This document shows positions 6,781 through 29,626 of a stretch of 48,070 bases of DNA, piece after piece. The stretch is from an uncultured Dehalococcoidia bacterium (GTDB lineage: Bacteria; Chloroflexota; Dehalococcoidia; Lucifugimonadales; Lucifugimonadaceae), in assembly GCA_913048295.1 (NCBI GenBank), contig CAJWWK010000013.1, forward strand, positions 1 through 48,070. The letters run 5' to 3'. Positions within the stretch are counted from its first letter, which is position 1. Each line of letters starts with the position of its first letter. The notes below the pieces were generated by a model. The model was not told the origin of the DNA, ran no database searches, and saw only the letters and a list, made by a program, of their open reading frames with translations. The translations under genes were made by a program, and so were the position numbers.

Positions 6781-8215
6781 CTATTGGTCGAGTTGTGGAA
6801 CCGGTTCAGAGTAGACTCAGGCGTTGAAAAACTCACCCAGATTTTGCTGGCTTATCTCTTCGGAAATAGACATGGAATCAGCAGTTGAAGCGGTGCCGTA
6901 CTTGAATCGTGAGGTATACGTTCTCAGGATTTCAAAGAAATCGTCGTCGCCCAGTTCGAGTCGTAGCGCGTGAAGCGTCAGAACACCCCGAAGGTATGCG
7001 GACTGATCGATTACCTCGGCTGGTGAATTGACTACTGCAGGGGGGCGAGTGTTCTCCCCTATTCTCCTCCTGATTGAGCGGATACTCTCGGCAACTGAGT
7101 CAACACCCCCGATATGGCCAGCCCACAGGATCTCAGCGTAGGTGACGAACCCCTCAGCGAGCCAATTATCGGCTGGCGAGGCGGGCGAGACGCTACCCCC
7201 GAACCACTGGTGCGAAATCTCATGGGCGATGAGGCGTTCGTCGCTCAACATCAGAAATACTCGCTGGGGTGGACCAAAACCCCGGAAAGGCAGATTCCCC
7301 CGGAGGAACGTTATGCCGAACGAGTCAAACGGGAACGGACCAAACAGCCCGGTGAATAGTGCGATCACGTCCGGGACGATATCGAACCTGTCGATGGAGA
7401 TTTGAGTGAAATCGGAAGGGAAGTAGTTGTTGATCGTCAAACCGTCCGGACCGACGATCGAATCGAGTACCGGATCTGGGGCAGCGAACGAAACTCCGCT
7501 GACGGGAATCGAGACCTCCCAGACGTAGGTTGACGTATCGCCATTATTGATCGTAGCGGTAAGCTCGCCGGTCGCAGTTGCAGTCATGGGTTCAGGCACG
7601 GTCAGGCTGATGGTGTAAGTGGCTTTGTCGAGGGGGGTCTGATTGATCGGATACCACGCCAACCCGAATCCGTGCACGATGACCGATTCCACGAAGAGAG
7701 TCCAACCATTGGGAAAGGAAATTCCGGCACAACGAGAGGCTCGGACGTGCCACCGTACGTGATACGAACTATGAACTCCGAACCGCCCGGGATCACTGCC
7801 GCGGGTTCGATGATCAGTTAGTTTTCTGTGCGCGTGAAGATCGCCGGTTCGCCGTTCACCCGCACCTCGCTCACCTTTGGCCCTACGAAGTCGAAATTGA
7901 ACGCCGCGAGATTTGCAGTCACTTTCACCCGGATAGTCGCCACCCCGGTGAGAGTGTTTGCACCGGGGTCAATGATCAGGTCGAGATCGTAGTGAGAGAC
8001 GTCGTATCCGCCGTTGCCGAACGATGGGAACACCGGGTTGCCCAATTGGGCTGCACCGCGGATGCCGACAATTGGCTCCGGCGTCGCTGTCGGCGTTGGT
8101 GCAGCGGCCGGAGTGTCATTGACCGTTATGTGGAATGGGCAGAATCCGCCGCACACGCCACAATCGCGATGAGCGCGATTGACAGGAAGACCACTCGTGA
8201 TGCAGGGATCAGCAT
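6781..8215 (-). pseudogene. M1-family (gluzincin) aminopeptidase-like lipoprotein, broken by four lesions
   Basis: Reading from ATG 8213-8215, a lipoprotein signal (MLIPASRVVFLSIALIAIVAC) is followed by a frameshift near 8140. A TP-rich linker and the M1 N-terminal beta domain (YDVSHYDLDLIIDPGANTLTG) come next. An in-frame TAA follows at 7818-7820, where a glutamine codon CAA would restore the frame, and then a frameshift near 7707. The catalytic domain keeps HEISHQWFGG and the downstream glutamate of NWLAEGF, the HExxH-x18-E zinc site. A final TGA at 6820-6822 replaces what is usually tryptophan in FFNAW, after which VYSEPVPQLDQ reads on to a natural stop. The ancestor was a secreted, membrane-anchored zinc aminopeptidase of about 475 residues. 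Four independent lesions make a functional product unlikely. Confidence 0.85.
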
Positions 8216-8458
8216 ATCCGCTTACTTTCCTTTATCTTTCTTTGCGGACGGCCAGAGGTGATTGCCGCATGCTGAACCGTTACGCCGTAATGCTCCCGGC
8301 GAAGTTTGCAAAATGATAACTGCGTGCCGGACAACGCATCGGATATTTGCCCTCTCCCGAAACGGCGATCTCCGACACGTGCAGAATGCGGTGTCGACAA
8401 TGGTGCAGGCCTGTGCGCTCCGATTTGCGGGCATAAGCGCGTTGGAAAAAGGAATGTG

Positions 8459-9454
8459 ATGGCAACCACAAAAAATATCTTCGAGCAGGCGATAATTATC
8501 GACGGCCTCGACACCAGCAAGTGGGGCCGGAAAAGCGTGTACCGCTCGTTGCGCGACGGCGGCGTTACCGCGATCAACGCGACAATCGCAGTCTGGGACG
8601 ATTACCAAACGGTCCTTCACAAGATCACCCACTACCTGGAATGGTTCGACCAGTTCTCGGACTTGATTCGGCCCGTGCACACGGTCGACGACATACGGGC
8701 AGCAAAGGCCGAGAACCGCACAGGCATCATCCTCGGCTGGCAGAACGCGGCGCCAATCGGGAACGACCTGCGGCGGCTCAGGCTGTTTCACGAACTGGGT
8801 GTGCGGATCATTCAACTTACGTACAACGAGCGGAACCTGCTCGGGAACGGCTGCTACGAACGGTTGGACGACGGATTGAGCAGGTTCGGGCTCGCTGCCG
8901 TGGCAGAGATGAACCGGCTCGGAATCCTGATCGACCTCTCGCATGTGGGTGACCGTACGACACTGGACGCCATCGAGAACTCGAACACACCAGTCGCGAT
9001 CACGCACGCCAACGCGCGGTCGCATATCGATCACCCCCGTAACAAGACTGACGAAGCAATAAAGCTGCTCGTCGAGAGAGGCGGTGTGATCGGCGCGAAC
9101 GCGTTCCCCATGTTCTTCGAGCGTGGCTTCGAGACCGGACTGGGCGAATACATCGACGCCATCGATTACCTGGTCCAGATGACAGGCATCGACCACGTCG
9201 CCATTGGCACCGACTTCTGTATGGAACAGCCAAGATCGTGGTTCGAGTGGCTGTTTGCATCGCAGGGCAAGGTCCCGGCCAAAACAGTCGACTTCACGCC
9301 CGAGCCGTACCGACATTTGAAACACTTTGAAAGCCCGGCCGATTGGGTGAACGTCGCTGAGGAACTATCGGTCCGTAACTATTCAGAGTCCGACATACGA
9401 AAGATTCTCGGCGAGAACTGGTTGCGGCTTTTTGAGCGGGTGTGGACACCCTGA
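8459..9454 (+). CDS. Membrane-dipeptidase-like (peptidase M19) amidohydrolase, HxD motif absent
   Basis: A 331-residue TIM-barrel protein of the renal-dipeptidase (M19) family, which hydrolyses dipeptides or similar amides. The ATG at 8459 follows AAAAAGGA; the frame is open further upstream without a ribosome site. Retained motifs are DLSHVG and ITHANARS, which carry the two later metal-ligand histidines, and HVAIGTDFCM with the active-site aspartate. The first motif, usually DxHxD at the end of strand 1, reads DGLDTSKW here. The region around the bridging glutamate reads LGWQNAAP. One metal may thus be missing, pointing to a divergent subgroup with an unknown substrate. No signal peptide is seen, so a cytoplasmic location is expected. 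It starts a run of catabolic genes. Confidence 0.82.
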   Translation: MATTKNIFEQAIIIDGLDTSKWGRKSVYRSLRDGGVTAINATIAVWDDYQTVLHKITHYLEWFDQFSDLIRPVHTVDDIRAAKAENRTGIILGWQNAAPIGNDLRRLRLFHELGVRIIQLTYNERNLLGNGCYERLDDGLSRFGLAAVAEMNRLGILIDLSHVGDRTTLDAIENSNTPVAITHANARSHIDHPRNKTDEAIKLLVERGGVIGANAFPMFFERGFETGLGEYIDAIDYLVQMTGIDHVAIGTDFCMEQPRSWFEWLFASQGKVPAKTVDFTPEPYRHLKHFESPADWVNVAEELSVRNYSESDIRKILGENWLRLFERVWTP

Positions 9455-9497
9455 ACGCCCCTGGCGCATCGTACCGAATTTCCTGCGGCCACCTGGT

Positions 9498-10451
9498 CTA
9501 GTCCTCGAGGTTAAGCCAGCGTATGTCGGCAGGCGATAGTGCAACATCCAGCGCCGCCAGAGAGGTACGCGTCTCTTCGGGCAAAAGCGGGCCGATTATC
9601 GGGAACGTCGGAAACGGCAGATTCAGCACGTAAGCAAGCGCAATGCCGATCGCCGTTACACCTCGCTCGTCGGCCATCTGCCGTGCTCGTTCCAACCGCT
9701 TGAAGTTAGCTTCGCTGTACCAGCACCTGACAAGTTCGGGCTCGGAGCGATTTGCAGGGTCGGCACGACCGTCGGCGAAAAAACCACGCGCCTGGCTCGA
9801 CCACGGGAAAAGCGGCATGTTTTGTTCGGCCAGCCAACCTCGAGATGCCGCGTCCGATGCCGCAAGGCAGCCCGCCCACGGAGGTTCCACCATTCGAGCG
9901 AGACTCAGGTGGTTGCTGAGTACGGTAAACCCGGTTAGCCCGTTCTTCTCAGCATATTCGTTGGCCGCAGCTACTCGCGCAAGACTCCAGTTTGAGCCAC
10001 CGAATACGCTTACCTGCCCCGATTCTTGGTGCCGGTTCAACACGTCCACGAAATCACCGACCGGCACATCGAGATTGTCCCGGTGCAGAAAGTAAATGTC
10101 GACAGAGTCGGTCTGGAGTCTTTCCAGACTTTCTCCGAGTTCTTTGGTCACGGTTTCGGGATTGCAGTTCGGGGTGTGGGCACCTTTGGTAATTACTATC
10201 GTTTCGTCACGGACGCCCCGGTTTTTCATCCATTGCCCGAGGACGAGTTCGGCCGCGCCGTAATGCCGCGCGGTGTCGAAACAGTTCCCACCGGCTGCGA
10301 CAAACTCGTCAAACATCACCGACGCAGAACCCAGTTCCTGTGATCCCAGCGTCCCCATGACGATTCGAGAGACCCCCGCTTCGACTCCCGAAACGCGACC
10401 GTAGGGCATTAGAGGGGCGGCCGAATGGACGCCCTGGACGTTGTTACTCAT
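9498..10451 (-). CDS. Aldo/keto reductase
   Basis: A 317-residue NAD(P)H-dependent aldo/keto reductase. The catalytic tetrad is visible: Asp in CFDTARHYG, Tyr in the same motif, Lys in VITKGAH and His in IYFLHRDN. The cofactor-binding end reads AYVLNLPFPTFPIIGPLLPEE. ATG at 10449-10451 gives a family-like N-terminus (VSRIVMGTLGSQELG follows after about 25 residues). Its ribosome site is weak. The family reduces aldehydes and ketones or oxidises sugars. It lies 43 bases downstream of an alpha/beta-hydrolase gene on the same strand, with the FAH-family gene before that, so the three are probably cotranscribed. Substrate is unknown. Confidence 0.87.
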   Translation of the reverse strand: MSNNVQGVHSAAPLMPYGRVSGVEAGVSRIVMGTLGSQELGSASVMFDEFVAAGGNCFDTARHYGAAELVLGQWMKNRGVRDETIVITKGAHTPNCNPETVTKELGESLERLQTDSVDIYFLHRDNLDVPVGDFVDVLNRHQESGQVSVFGGSNWSLARVAAANEYAEKNGLTGFTVLSNHLSLARMVEPPWAGCLAASDAASRGWLAEQNMPLFPWSSQARGFFADGRADPANRSEPELVRCWYSEANFKRLERARQMADERGVTAIGIALAYVLNLPFPTFPIIGPLLPEETRTSLAALDVALSPADIRWLNLED

Positions 10452-26246: not shown

Positions 26247-29200
26247 CTACCCTGCCGGTTCGACCAGATCGTGCAGCCGGTTCAGGTCCACATCATTCAG
26301 GTTCGTTTCAACGCCGCTCGGCCATTCGATGGCCACGTCCACTCTGCTGGCATCCCCGAGCCCGAAATTAAGTTCGGTCGAACTCATTGAGAGGAAGCTC
26401 GACGAAGCCAGGACTTCCCTGACCTGGGTAATCGGTGTGCCGTTCGGCCCGATGTGGGTAACCATGATTCTGGTACCTATCGCATCGGCATTCGACCCGC
26501 TCCCGTCAATCGCCATGCGCCCGGTCAGGCGGAACGAAATCCAGTTGTTGTCGTTACTCGAGTTCATCCACACGAATAACGGACCGCCAACGACTATCGG
26601 GTCGCCACCCGCATCAAAGGTCTCGCCGTTGCTGTTCGTCGCGATAACGTCCACCGCTCCGTCGCCGTTAAGGTCTCCGACCGCCACACCTTTACCGTTT
26701 TCGTGGAATTCGATGCCCAGCCGCTGTTTTGCCGCGCTGAAATCGGGGTCGTCTGTATCGAGAATCGAATAGTCCACGCCAAGCGAATCGACCAGCTGTG
26801 CCTCAACGGTGACATCTCTGAAGCCACCACTGCCGGTGTTCTGCAGCATGCGCCCGATTCCCGGGGCTAAATTGCCGTTCGGTCCTTCCCCGCGTGATGC
26901 CAGGGAGCCCAGCCAGTAGAGGTCCTGGTCGGCGTCGTTGTCCATGTCGAAGAAGACCGTGCCGAAGCCGAACTCGTAAGCTTCAAGTCCTGAAATGGGG
27001 CCATCGTCGGCTGCCTTGAATTCACCCGTCAGCGAAGTGGGAGGCAGGACCGCACTCGGCTCGACCTCGGTGCTTCCTGTCACGATTTGCCACGCACCGC
27101 GGCGATCGGGGTCGGCTCCTTCATTTACCCGGTTCTCGATCAGCGCATGGAAGCAAGTACCCGATTCCGAGGCATGGTAGTAGACACAATCGGCCGAAGG
27201 GACGCCGTTCCAGGGTCGGGCAAGGGGTTGGAACCCCATGTTGGTGACGAACACATCAAGATCGCCATCGCCGTCATAGTCGCCCAGTGCAAACCCCATC
27301 CACTGGCCCATCTGGTCGATATCCAGCTGCTCTTCGATGCTCGTAAACGCCAGACCTGCGGCCGTCGAGTCGTTGCGGTAAACCTTCAACCTGTCGCCAT
27401 CGTCGGCAATCCACAAGTCGAGGTCGCCGTCAGAGTCATGGTCGAAAAACATCGTCGCCCATGTCTGCCCCGCAGGATCGCCCACAACATTGCCGTTTGC
27501 ATCGACAAAGCTAATGTCGAATCCTTCGATCGGTTCTCCACCCGGACCGGAGAAGGTAATCGGATTGCCGTCGGTGTCCCGCATCCGGATCGGTGGCGAG
27601 ACGAGGCCCGCCTCTTCCGTCATATCCGAGAAGGTCAGATCTCCGTTGTCGTCTACACCGTTGTTGCTGAACAGCGTGTTGTAGTTGCCATGATGACGGG
27701 AGGTGTCGAAACGTACGAAGTCCTGATCGGCCCTGTTTCCAACGTAGATATCAGTCCAGCCGTCGTTGTCAACGTCCCCGCATGCAACGCTGGCCGTCGA
27801 ACGAATGTTGACGTGTTCTGCGAAGGCGGTAGCGGTGATATCGGTAAATGTTCCATCGCCGTTGTTATGGAAGAGCCGGTCCTGCACCACAACGGCCAGC
27901 TCGAGGTCCTGTGCGGCAGACCGATAGTCGAGGTTGTCGCCAATGCGCCCCTGCGCCCCGACATACAAGTCCTGGTAGCCGTCATTGTCGAAATCGCAGG
28001 CTGCGACAGCAGTCGAGTTTTGCGTGTCTGCAGTAACACCGGCGATTGCTGCGACATCAATAAAACGCCCATCGCCTTCGTTTCTGAACAACCTGTTCGG
28101 CCCACCGCGAGTTATCTGGAACACTGCGTTTGTCTCAGCCGAAGTTACATAGAAGTCGAGGTCGCCATCTCTGTCGAAGTCGAAGATCGCCACTCCCGGG
28201 TACCGGTTTTCGATCAGCGCATCCGTCCCGATCAAGGGTGCGACGTTGCGGAACGGGGCGAATTCGTCGCTGGTGGGAATGCCGTCGAAAACCCCTGGGT
28301 AATCGGCGGGGTCGACCGGGTCTCCGGTCGACGCGACGAAAAGTTCTTCGACCGTTGGCGTCCCAGCCGCCTTCGCCACCCTGTCGCTGAGGCCCGCGTC
28401 TTCCCAGAAATACGCCCCGCCAAGCAACACCAGCAACCCGCCGGCCGCTCCAACCGCCCAGGTCGCAGTGGCGAATGTGGCGATGGCCTTGCGCGGCATT
28501 AGCCGGGCCAGCCCCCAGAAGGTCACCGGCCCCCCGGCCGCCGCCGCAAACAACAGCGTCGCTGCTGGTGCTGTGCCCATGCCCAGCAAAAGCAAAAGTG
28601 CAACCAGCGGTATTTCAAACAGCAACGGTACGTTGATCAACACGCCGAACGTTGCCGCGATCAAAACCCCCTGTACGTCGTTGCCAAGATATGTCGCAAC
28701 GACTTCCGGACTCAGCCACTGGATCACCAGGCCACTGGCGAATCCGGCAAGAATCATGATTGGCGAGAGGCGGATGGCATATCCGATACTCGATTTCGCC
28801 CATTGCCTGAAGGCCGGCAGCAAGACCTGTCTCCAGCCCAGAAGATCGGCTGGGTCCTTGAACGTATCGGGAATCTCAACGGGCTGCACCCTGTCCCGTC
28901 GTACGCTCATCACGACGATCGGCCCGATTATCAGCGCACCGACAATCGCGAAGATCAGGCGGCTGAACCCGAGAACGGGGCTGAACACGAAAAACACCAT
29001 CGCCAGCGCCGGAATATTCAGCGTGGTCGAGCCCTGGACCATCGCGACCGCGCCTTCGATGCTCGCCCGCCGGTGGAAAGCCGACGAAACGGGGACGATG
29101 CAGGCCGAACACAGATTCATCATCCCGCCGGCTGCTGCACCCTGGACCGTCCGCCGGAACATTCCGGCTGTAGGCAGGCCCCTGCCGACAGATTTCGAAA

Positions 29201-29492
29201 ACAGAAACGCCTCAGCAAGCCCGGCAGTGATGAAAGCGAACGTCATGCCGACGGTGACAAGCCTCAAATACGAAATTGAAAACTTGACCCACCGGGTGAT
29301 AAAACTCGTTCCGGGGTCACGGTCGATACAGAAACCCTGGAAACACTGGCGTCCGGGCGAGCTGACCGCATCGAGGTCTTCGCCCACGATGCCGATCTTC
29401 GGCAGGCGATTGAACGCAAGAAACATCCCCATGATGATGATCAGCAGCACAAGGCCGACGAGAAGTCGTTTGCGATCGGCGGTTGCAAACAT
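26247..29492 (-). CDS. Fusion of a COG0701/ArsP-type permease with an FG-GAP/VCBS beta-propeller and ASPIC/UnbV domain
   Basis: A 1081-residue protein. Residues about 1-375 form a multi-helix permease of the DUF318/COG0701 type, with a CSAC motif (C128, C131) in MMNLCSACIVPV. This matches the CSC region of ArsP-like organoarsenical permeases. After the last helix (about 350-375) comes a soluble region. It holds seven calcium-type DxDxDGxxD loops between about residues 434 and 945: DFDRDGDLD, DFDNDGYQD, DVDNDGWTD, DHDSDGDLD, DYDGDGDLD, DMDNDADQD and DLNGDGAVD. That fits a seven-bladed FG-GAP/VCBS propeller. The final 100 residues (ISFRLTGRMAIDGSGSNADAIG... to LNFGLGDAS) match the ASPIC/UnbV domain of CRTAC1-like proteins. 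The propeller is expected outside the membrane. The ATG overlaps the stop of a small membrane-peptide gene. No internal stop or frameshift suggests an artefact. Confidence 0.88.
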   Translation of the reverse strand: MFATADRKRLLVGLVLLIIIMGMFLAFNRLPKIGIVGEDLDAVSSPGRQCFQGFCIDRDPGTSFITRWVKFSISYLRLVTVGMTFAFITAGLAEAFLFSKSVGRGLPTAGMFRRTVQGAAAGGMMNLCSACIVPVSSAFHRRASIEGAVAMVQGSTTLNIPALAMVFFVFSPVLGFSRLIFAIVGALIIGPIVVMSVRRDRVQPVEIPDTFKDPADLLGWRQVLLPAFRQWAKSSIGYAIRLSPIMILAGFASGLVIQWLSPEVVATYLGNDVQGVLIAATFGVLINVPLLFEIPLVALLLLLGMGTAPAATLLFAAAAGGPVTFWGLARLMPRKAIATFATATWAVGAAGGLLVLLGGAYFWEDAGLSDRVAKAAGTPTVEELFVASTGDPVDPADYPGVFDGIPTSDEFAPFRNVAPLIGTDALIENRYPGVAIFDFDRDGDLDFYVTSAETNAVFQITRGGPNRLFRNEGDGRFIDVAAIAGVTADTQNSTAVAACDFDNDGYQDLYVGAQGRIGDNLDYRSAAQDLELAVVVQDRLFHNNGDGTFTDITATAFAEHVNIRSTASVACGDVDNDGWTDIYVGNRADQDFVRFDTSRHHGNYNTLFSNNGVDDNGDLTFSDMTEEAGLVSPPIRMRDTDGNPITFSGPGGEPIEGFDISFVDANGNVVGDPAGQTWATMFFDHDSDGDLDLWIADDGDRLKVYRNDSTAAGLAFTSIEEQLDIDQMGQWMGFALGDYDGDGDLDVFVTNMGFQPLARPWNGVPSADCVYYHASESGTCFHALIENRVNEGADPDRRGAWQIVTGSTEVEPSAVLPPTSLTGEFKAADDGPISGLEAYEFGFGTVFFDMDNDADQDLYWLGSLASRGEGPNGNLAPGIGRMLQNTGSGGFRDVTVEAQLVDSLGVDYSILDTDDPDFSAAKQRLGIEFHENGKGVAVGDLNGDGAVDVIATNSNGETFDAGGDPIVVGGPLFVWMNSSNDNNWISFRLTGRMAIDGSGSNADAIGTRIMVTHIGPNGTPITQVREVLASSSFLSMSSTELNFGLGDASRVDVAIEWPSGVETNLNDVDLNRLHDLVEPAG

Positions 29493-29626
29493 TATTTACG
29501 GAACCTGTCGCGCAGCCGACTGGCGAAGTCCGACTCACCCTCTGGGGCCGGAATCGTGATCCACATGATGAGCAGCCCGCCGAACACCACGGAAGGGAGC
29601 ATCACTTCAAGTAACCACTCAGGCAT
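29492..29626 (-). CDS. 44-residue single-helix membrane peptide coupled to the permease fusion
   Basis: ATG at 29624-29626 opens MPEWLLEVMLPSVVFGGLLI, followed by MWITIPAPEGESDFASRLRD and RFRK. The hydrophobic helix spans roughly residues 7-26, followed by an amphipathic basic tail. Its TAA shares one base with the downstream ATG (TAATG), so the two genes should be translationally coupled. Upstream is only a modest ribosome-like sequence (GAGTGG). It is too short for most gene finders. An accessory subunit of the transporter is the natural guess from position and topology, but I know of no described family. Confidence 0.6.
   Translation of the reverse strand: MPEWLLEVMLPSVVFGGLLIMWITIPAPEGESDFASRLRDRFRK

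Follow-up and report, generated by a model that had tools for sequence, protein, structure and literature searches.

An ArsP_1-type permease fused to a predicted outer propeller: a candidate transporter family with exchangeable ectodomains

Why would a single bacterial gene encode both a multi-helix permease and a calcium-type beta-propeller? The question is raised by the window analyzed here, a 48,070-nt stretch of DNA (contig CAJWWK010000013.1, assembly GCA_913048295.1) from an uncultured Dehalococcoidia bacterium of the phylum Chloroflexota. A preliminary description had noted one uninterrupted frame uniting a permease with a CSAC motif, propeller loops and an ASPIC/UnbV segment. Open reading frame (ORF) and Pfam analyses bore this out and added the strand, which had not been stated: the frame occupies 26247..29492 on the minus strand, from an ATG at 29492 to a stop at 26247-26249, and encodes 1081 aa with no internal stop, while plus-strand reading of the same interval is interrupted by stops. 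We propose, and give an even chance to, the explanation that the gene encodes a functional transporter of the YraQ/ArsP_1 kind equipped with an outer docking or ligand module.

Both halves of the protein match established families above the curated Pfam cut-offs: ArsP_1 (PF03773; residues 73-354, 65.2 bits versus a cut-off of 32.3, profile positions 10-291 of 294), FG-GAP_3 (115.5 bits in five stretches) and UnbV_ASPIC (residues 1004-1073, 54.4 bits versus 23.4). The protein thus belongs to ArsP_1 across the domain and, by its FG-GAP repeats plus UnbV, to the CRTAC1/UnbV_ASPIC group. The source genome (2.43 Mb, 110 contigs, given as 89% complete) contains a single ArsP_1 and a single UnbV match, both in this gene. 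All seven expected calcium-type loops are present, but only five (residues 438, 500, 573, 684 and 738) follow the strict DxDxDGxxD consensus, the sixth reading DxDxDAxxD (849) and the seventh DxNxDGxxD (940); by their motifs they are putative calcium-binding sites. In a structure comparison of the predicted model, the propeller fold matches solved CRTAC1, followed in the Foldseek list by integrin headpieces.

Does this architecture recur? A whole-protein search covered 60 genomes, that of the window and those of 59 relatives. Of these, 32 matched at E ≤ 1e-10, and in 16 (own plus 15 others, counted from the table) a single open frame gave a match of nearly full length, with 39-86% identity in the 15 others; elsewhere there was only a separate propeller, a fragment at the end of a contig, a different fusion or no match at all. 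In a 53-row alignment, the 52 rows other than the window's protein are 34-86% identical to it, one of them being a free propeller. Such recurrence goes far beyond chance. A scan with the permease alignment, using one genome per species, found 90 relatives, of which the best 80, from 78 loci, were kept; all family-frame counts given here rest on these. Sixty-seven frames were scored as fusions, eight as permease only, three as other and two as cut by contig ends. At least three calcium loops stand behind the permease in 66 of the 80 (in three of them the contig ends before UnbV is reached), and the remaining fusion, L095, has a UnbV remnant only. The same domain order, sought at the suggestion of the preliminary description, hence recurs in several lineages. 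The titles of most records name SAR202, Dehalococcoidia or Chloroflexi; a few records are labeled Spirochaetia, Spirochaetaceae, Acidobacteria, Acidimicrobiia, Deltaproteobacteria, Alphaproteobacteria or Acidiferrobacteraceae, where short contigs may be mis-binned. The Spirochaetia record holds two family copies in one genome, on contigs >1 Mb. The family is real but patchy, because in even samples it was carried by 11 of the 393 genomes taken from the class and by 3 of the 301 taken from the phylum, with the window's own counted in both.

One carrier is the cultured SAR202 bacterium ‘Candidatus Lucifugimonas marina’ JH1073, of the same genus, with the fusion in a single-contig genome (L063, CP046147). 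According to PMC10444878, this genome is a closed PacBio contig, the envelope is monoderm, peptidoglycan biosynthesis genes are absent and strain JH545 has an S-layer-like layer; the words ‘ASPIC’, ‘propeller’ and ‘permease’ do not occur in its main text. A literature search combining SAR202 with FG-GAP found no report. Among viral contigs, 10 pattern matches included no relative. Plasmid searches returned 11 records, all below 60% identity, the 10 matches listed lying on the propeller side, and two weak Klebsiella permease matches with the permease alone.

The membrane core is strongly conserved. CSAC, formed with Cys 128 and Cys 131, is kept in all 80 family frames, partly by construction as LCSACIVP was one of two search patterns, and CFQGxC, which was not a genome-search pattern, is kept in 79 (L089 lacks it). 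In the 79-row permease alignment, 68 of 375 columns are at least 97% conserved; outside L041 and L050, FEIPLV, CSAC and numerous membrane positions hardly vary. AlphaFold modeled the domain with a predicted template modeling score (pTM) of 0.82. Comparison with Escherichia coli YraQ by hhalign (probability 98.3, E = 1.4e-14) revealed a common CxxC site, EIP and GMGTAPA and, by these shared motifs, the permease is nearer to YraQ than to the CSC-type ArsP proteins of relatives. It carries the features of the YraQ-like branch of COG0701 (CxxC plus EIP and GMGTAPA in the second half), judged by our own feature list and one YraQ, not a curated model. The preliminary assignment to a COG0701/ArsP permease with a CRTAC1-like propeller was therefore right in kind and is refined toward YraQ and, as discussed below, toward an exchangeable outer part.

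The propeller and UnbV are very probably extracytoplasmic, a location already suggested in the preliminary description. The permease charge distribution fits an N-in, C-out topology, and separate propeller frames begin with lipoprotein-like or hydrophobic segments, 6 of 15 having a lipobox by pattern. One member (L086) carries a choice-of-anchor Q beta-helix (89.8 bits versus a cut-off of 25) where the propeller would stand. In L115 (4866-6569) and L119 (4818-6569), from bins labeled Acidobacteria and Acidimicrobiia, the permease is followed by a domain of ~150 residues without family assignment.

Permease and propeller trees disagree. The 82-row propeller tree contains a group of 41 rows, with a Shimodaira–Hasegawa-like approximate likelihood ratio test (SH-aLRT) support of 100, that mixes 27 fused, 12 separate and two CSAC-less forms. 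On a permease tree of 64 fusion rows, those 27 fusions need seven changes, and holding them together was rejected (log-likelihood lower by 274; approximately unbiased (AU) test, p = 1e-72), the test using a quick tree with some long branches and a group defined from propeller data. Because one tree mixes fused, separate and CSAC-less forms and the other rejects the grouping, the sequences point to an outer part that is exchanged as a module rather than to a single, fixed fusion. Tandem fusions on one contig (L079, 1985-4729 and 4947-8039) have in common a 914-base stretch of 98.9% identity, which takes in most of the permease and stops close to its last helix; at the DNA level, their propellers align over 207 bases only (70.5%). 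This single case may stem from module exchange, from a recent gene conversion or from misassembly.

Loss of the propeller is likely as well. Six of the eight frames scored as permease only have no UnbV-bearing frame in the fetched locus. L101, also scored so, is a fusion whose frame breaks off within the first blade, with the remainder in the next frame (pieces read separately). In L114, a pair with some unread bases, the propeller has a frame of its own that follows and overlaps that of the permease and begins with a hydrophobic segment. Five SAR202 permease-only members (L084, L087, L092, L094 and L122) nest among fusions in a quick permease tree that leaves out L060 and L066 (cut) and three CSAC-less frames. 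An ancestral permease-only clade is accordingly not supported, and secondary loss of the propeller in these five is likely from their placement. Another, free tree, which also omits L091 and L108_1588, did not recover the five-member grouping; the tree holding it had the higher likelihood (AU p = 0.73). The 81-row alignment leaves out L130 and L114. In the propeller frames at L041 (5449-8700 and 8820-11996) and L050 (4759-7428), the membrane region shows a CxQGxC-like motif but neither CSAC nor a Pfam ArsP_1 match. They may be decayed permeases, a label based on motif and position since Pfam sees no ArsP_1. At L045, a 742-aa frame beside the fusion (8169-10394, plus strand) starts with a long N-terminal region to which no Pfam family matches and continues into an FG-GAP/UnbV part.

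The preliminary description of the locus missed a linked hydrophobic microprotein of 44 aa, encoded ahead of the fusion, whose stop TAA overlaps the fusion ATG by one base (TAATG) and which has no Pfam or NCBIfam match. A model built from eight such peptides, so that recovery within the genus is partly by construction, detected it ahead of 29 of the 80 frames at E ≤ 7.5e-13 (next score, 1.6), among them five permeases without a propeller; 51 frames lack it. Strong peptide matches were found in 20 of the 60 genomes, all among the 23 with the permease family by our reading of the search tables (own included), and in 0 of the 37 others. The permease is present without a strong peptide match in G041 (E = 2.6e-4), G053 and G058, and the peptide copy of G046 is not beside its permeases. 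Among 16 peptides of 44 codons, nonsynonymous differences per site were below synonymous ones in all 120 pairs (medians 0.16 and 0.72), the pairs not being independent. Because the peptide, found in one clade, follows the permease and not the propeller, it is probably a small permease subunit. At L161 (5678-5815, minus strand), a peptide copy lies away from any permease, next to a frame that by eye resembles leucyl-tRNA synthetase.

How might such a protein work? The membrane part is predicted to be built, as in elevator-type ion transporters, of two halves that resemble each other and contain broken helices. A small thiophilic substrate, whether metalloid, soft metal or thiol, is likely to have its site at the CSAC pair, which lies at one of the helix breaks. 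Characterized relatives of the permease export arsenicals or metals and, taking the direction from them, the substrate is probably exported. The C-terminus would leave the membrane on the outside, where a short linker would hold the seven-loop propeller and UnbV. This outer module could dock the transporter to an outside partner (surface layer, exopolymer or ligand) or gather or hand over cargo; the preliminary description had proposed that it may be a sensor, a substrate collector or an anchor for the transporter. Conservation of the membrane core argues for transport, while exchange and loss argue that the outer part is accessory and sets what the transporter meets outside; an accessory module could be replaced or lost while the permease stayed. 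More tentatively, and as something possible rather than probable, these proteins may form a modular ‘receptor-transporter’ family, in which interchangeable outer parts, be they CRTAC1-type propellers of differing size, a beta-helix or an unassigned domain, would plug into an elevator-type permease with a conserved outer cysteine hairpin and set capture or docking, with a 44-aa subunit in one clade.

The permease fold might instead no longer transport and merely display the propeller in place of a lipoprotein anchor. The lipoprotein-like or hydrophobic starts of separate propellers, a propeller pool common to fused, separate and CSAC-less forms, and the membrane regions of L041 (two genes) and L050 that keep a CxQGxC-like motif without CSAC or ArsP_1 all agree with such a role. 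However, the near-invariance of CSAC, FEIPLV and many membrane positions in the other frames is at odds with it, as are the six permeases without a UnbV frame in the locus, five of these with the peptide, and the cost of a multi-helix permease as an anchor; we consider it unlikely, although worth keeping in view. A lineage-specific fusion without functional coupling, which the patchy distribution would allow, seems improbable to us, as the same permease repeatedly bears different outer modules and the unfused pair in L114 still lies side by side. We give still less credence to a thiol-redox relay, in which the outer CFQGFC and the in-membrane CSAC would pass electrons or persulfide across the membrane, with the propeller as recipient or its holder. 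It draws on two near-invariant cysteine pairs, the first placed by prediction in an outer hairpin and the second where a helix breaks, and on Cys 769 and Cys 780 in the propeller, but CFQGFC could be a plain structural disulfide of the hairpin, CSAC-less forms retain the outer pair, and no redox domain was recognized in the scanned window neighbors except flavin-type oxidoreductase matches ~4 kb from the fusion gene. That a missed stop or assembly join near residue 400 united two genes in this draft genome, the refutation foreseen in the preliminary description, is rejected with near certainty because the frame recurs uninterrupted in 15 of 59 other genomes, including the closed PacBio genome of JH1073 (PMC10444878), and propeller fusions make up 66 of the 80 family frames.

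If the transporter with an outer module is real, an integrin-like propeller would sit on a transporter in place of a separate binding protein, with cassette-like outer exchange; monoderm cells would then have a new way to couple recognition at the surface with transport. SAR202 bacteria occur widely in the ocean and are slow-growing in culture. Because one genome comes from cultured JH1073, expression, topology and proteomics are directly testable, with the permease-linked microprotein as a concrete candidate subunit.

Table 1 Features of the fusion gene and its companion, in window coordinates
Feature	Position	Strand	Basis
Whole fusion gene, 1081 aa + stop	26247..29492	minus	ORF, Pfam, homologues
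Membrane permease domain, residues 5-366, ArsP_1/YraQ type	28395..29480	minus	Pfam 73-354, AlphaFold, hhalign to YraQ
CFQGFC, residues 50-55, predicted beta-hairpin of first loop	29328..29345	minus	sequence and AlphaFold model
CSAC, residues 128-131, at break of a broken helix	29100..29111	minus	aligned with YraQ CTCC
INVPLLFEIP, residues 286-295, at matching helix break of second half	28608..28637	minus	conservation and model
Linker, residues 367-408	28269..28394	minus	start of low confidence: predicted local distance difference test (pLDDT) <50 at 364-377
Beta-propeller, integrin/CRTAC1 type, residues 409-982	26547..28268	minus	bounds by structure comparison
Calcium-type loop 1, DFDRDGDLD, 438-446	28155..28181	minus	sequence
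Calcium-type loop 2, DFDNDGYQD, 500-508	27969..27995	minus	sequence
Calcium-type loop 3, DVDNDGWTD, 573-581	27750..27776	minus	sequence
Calcium-type loop 4, DHDSDGDLD, 684-692	27417..27443	minus	sequence
Calcium-type loop 5, DYDGDGDLD, 738-746	27255..27281	minus	sequence
Calcium-type loop 6, variant DMDNDADQD, 849-857	26922..26948	minus	sequence
Calcium-type loop 7, variant DLNGDGAVD, 940-948	26649..26675	minus	sequence
ASPIC/UnbV domain, residues 1004-1073	26274..26483	minus	Pfam
44-aa peptide gene, one hydrophobic stretch (MPEWLLEVML...RDRFRK)	29492..29626	minus	directly ahead of fusion

An arsenic or metal operon around the fusion was considered and rejected, the scanned window neighbors belonging to enolase-superfamily, MFS, chromate-transporter, peptidase and oxidoreductase families. 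No neighbor cluster recurs in more than 14 of the 78 loci, and several clusters look like antisense frames; neither the window neighbors nor these loci point to a substrate. Downstream of the permease, on the other strand, five loci (L084, L087, L092, L094 and L122) carry a lipoprotein-like gene with IWGSG.DDIWVVG-type sequence, perhaps another propeller (one member, by eye).

Among known systems, CRTAC1 is an exported protein of its own. The separate CRTAC1/ASPIC-UnbV homologues of relatives likewise appear as exported proteins in their own right, whereas the fusion family bears the propeller on the permease C-terminus. The calcium-loop propeller is shared with the integrin alpha type; the bacterial seven-repeat sequences retrieved in PMC3192720 are reported to be without a membrane helix, in contrast to the whole permease attached here. 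With ArsB/INDY-type ion transporters, the likeness is in arrangement only (Foldseek E = 0.23): a PDB sequence search with the permease gave no credible solved structure (best E = 0.11), and structure comparison led to no firm fold family. The permease scores far below the equivalog cut-offs of the SaoE efflux transporter (NF040736; 30.2 bits versus 325) and the SO_0444 Cu/Zn efflux transporter (NF033936; 20 bits versus 300). The CSC motif, which we take to be the mark of the ArsP methylarsenite exporter, is present in the two top-scoring ArsP_1 proteins of relatives (L132 and L133), whereas the fusion family has CSAC, YraQ has CTCC and L137 and L152 have CSCC. With YraQ and COG0701, the family shares the whole-domain ArsP_1 match, the CxxC site, EIP and GMGTAPA, and to these it adds the CFQGFC hairpin, the C-terminal ectodomain and, in one clade, the linked peptide.
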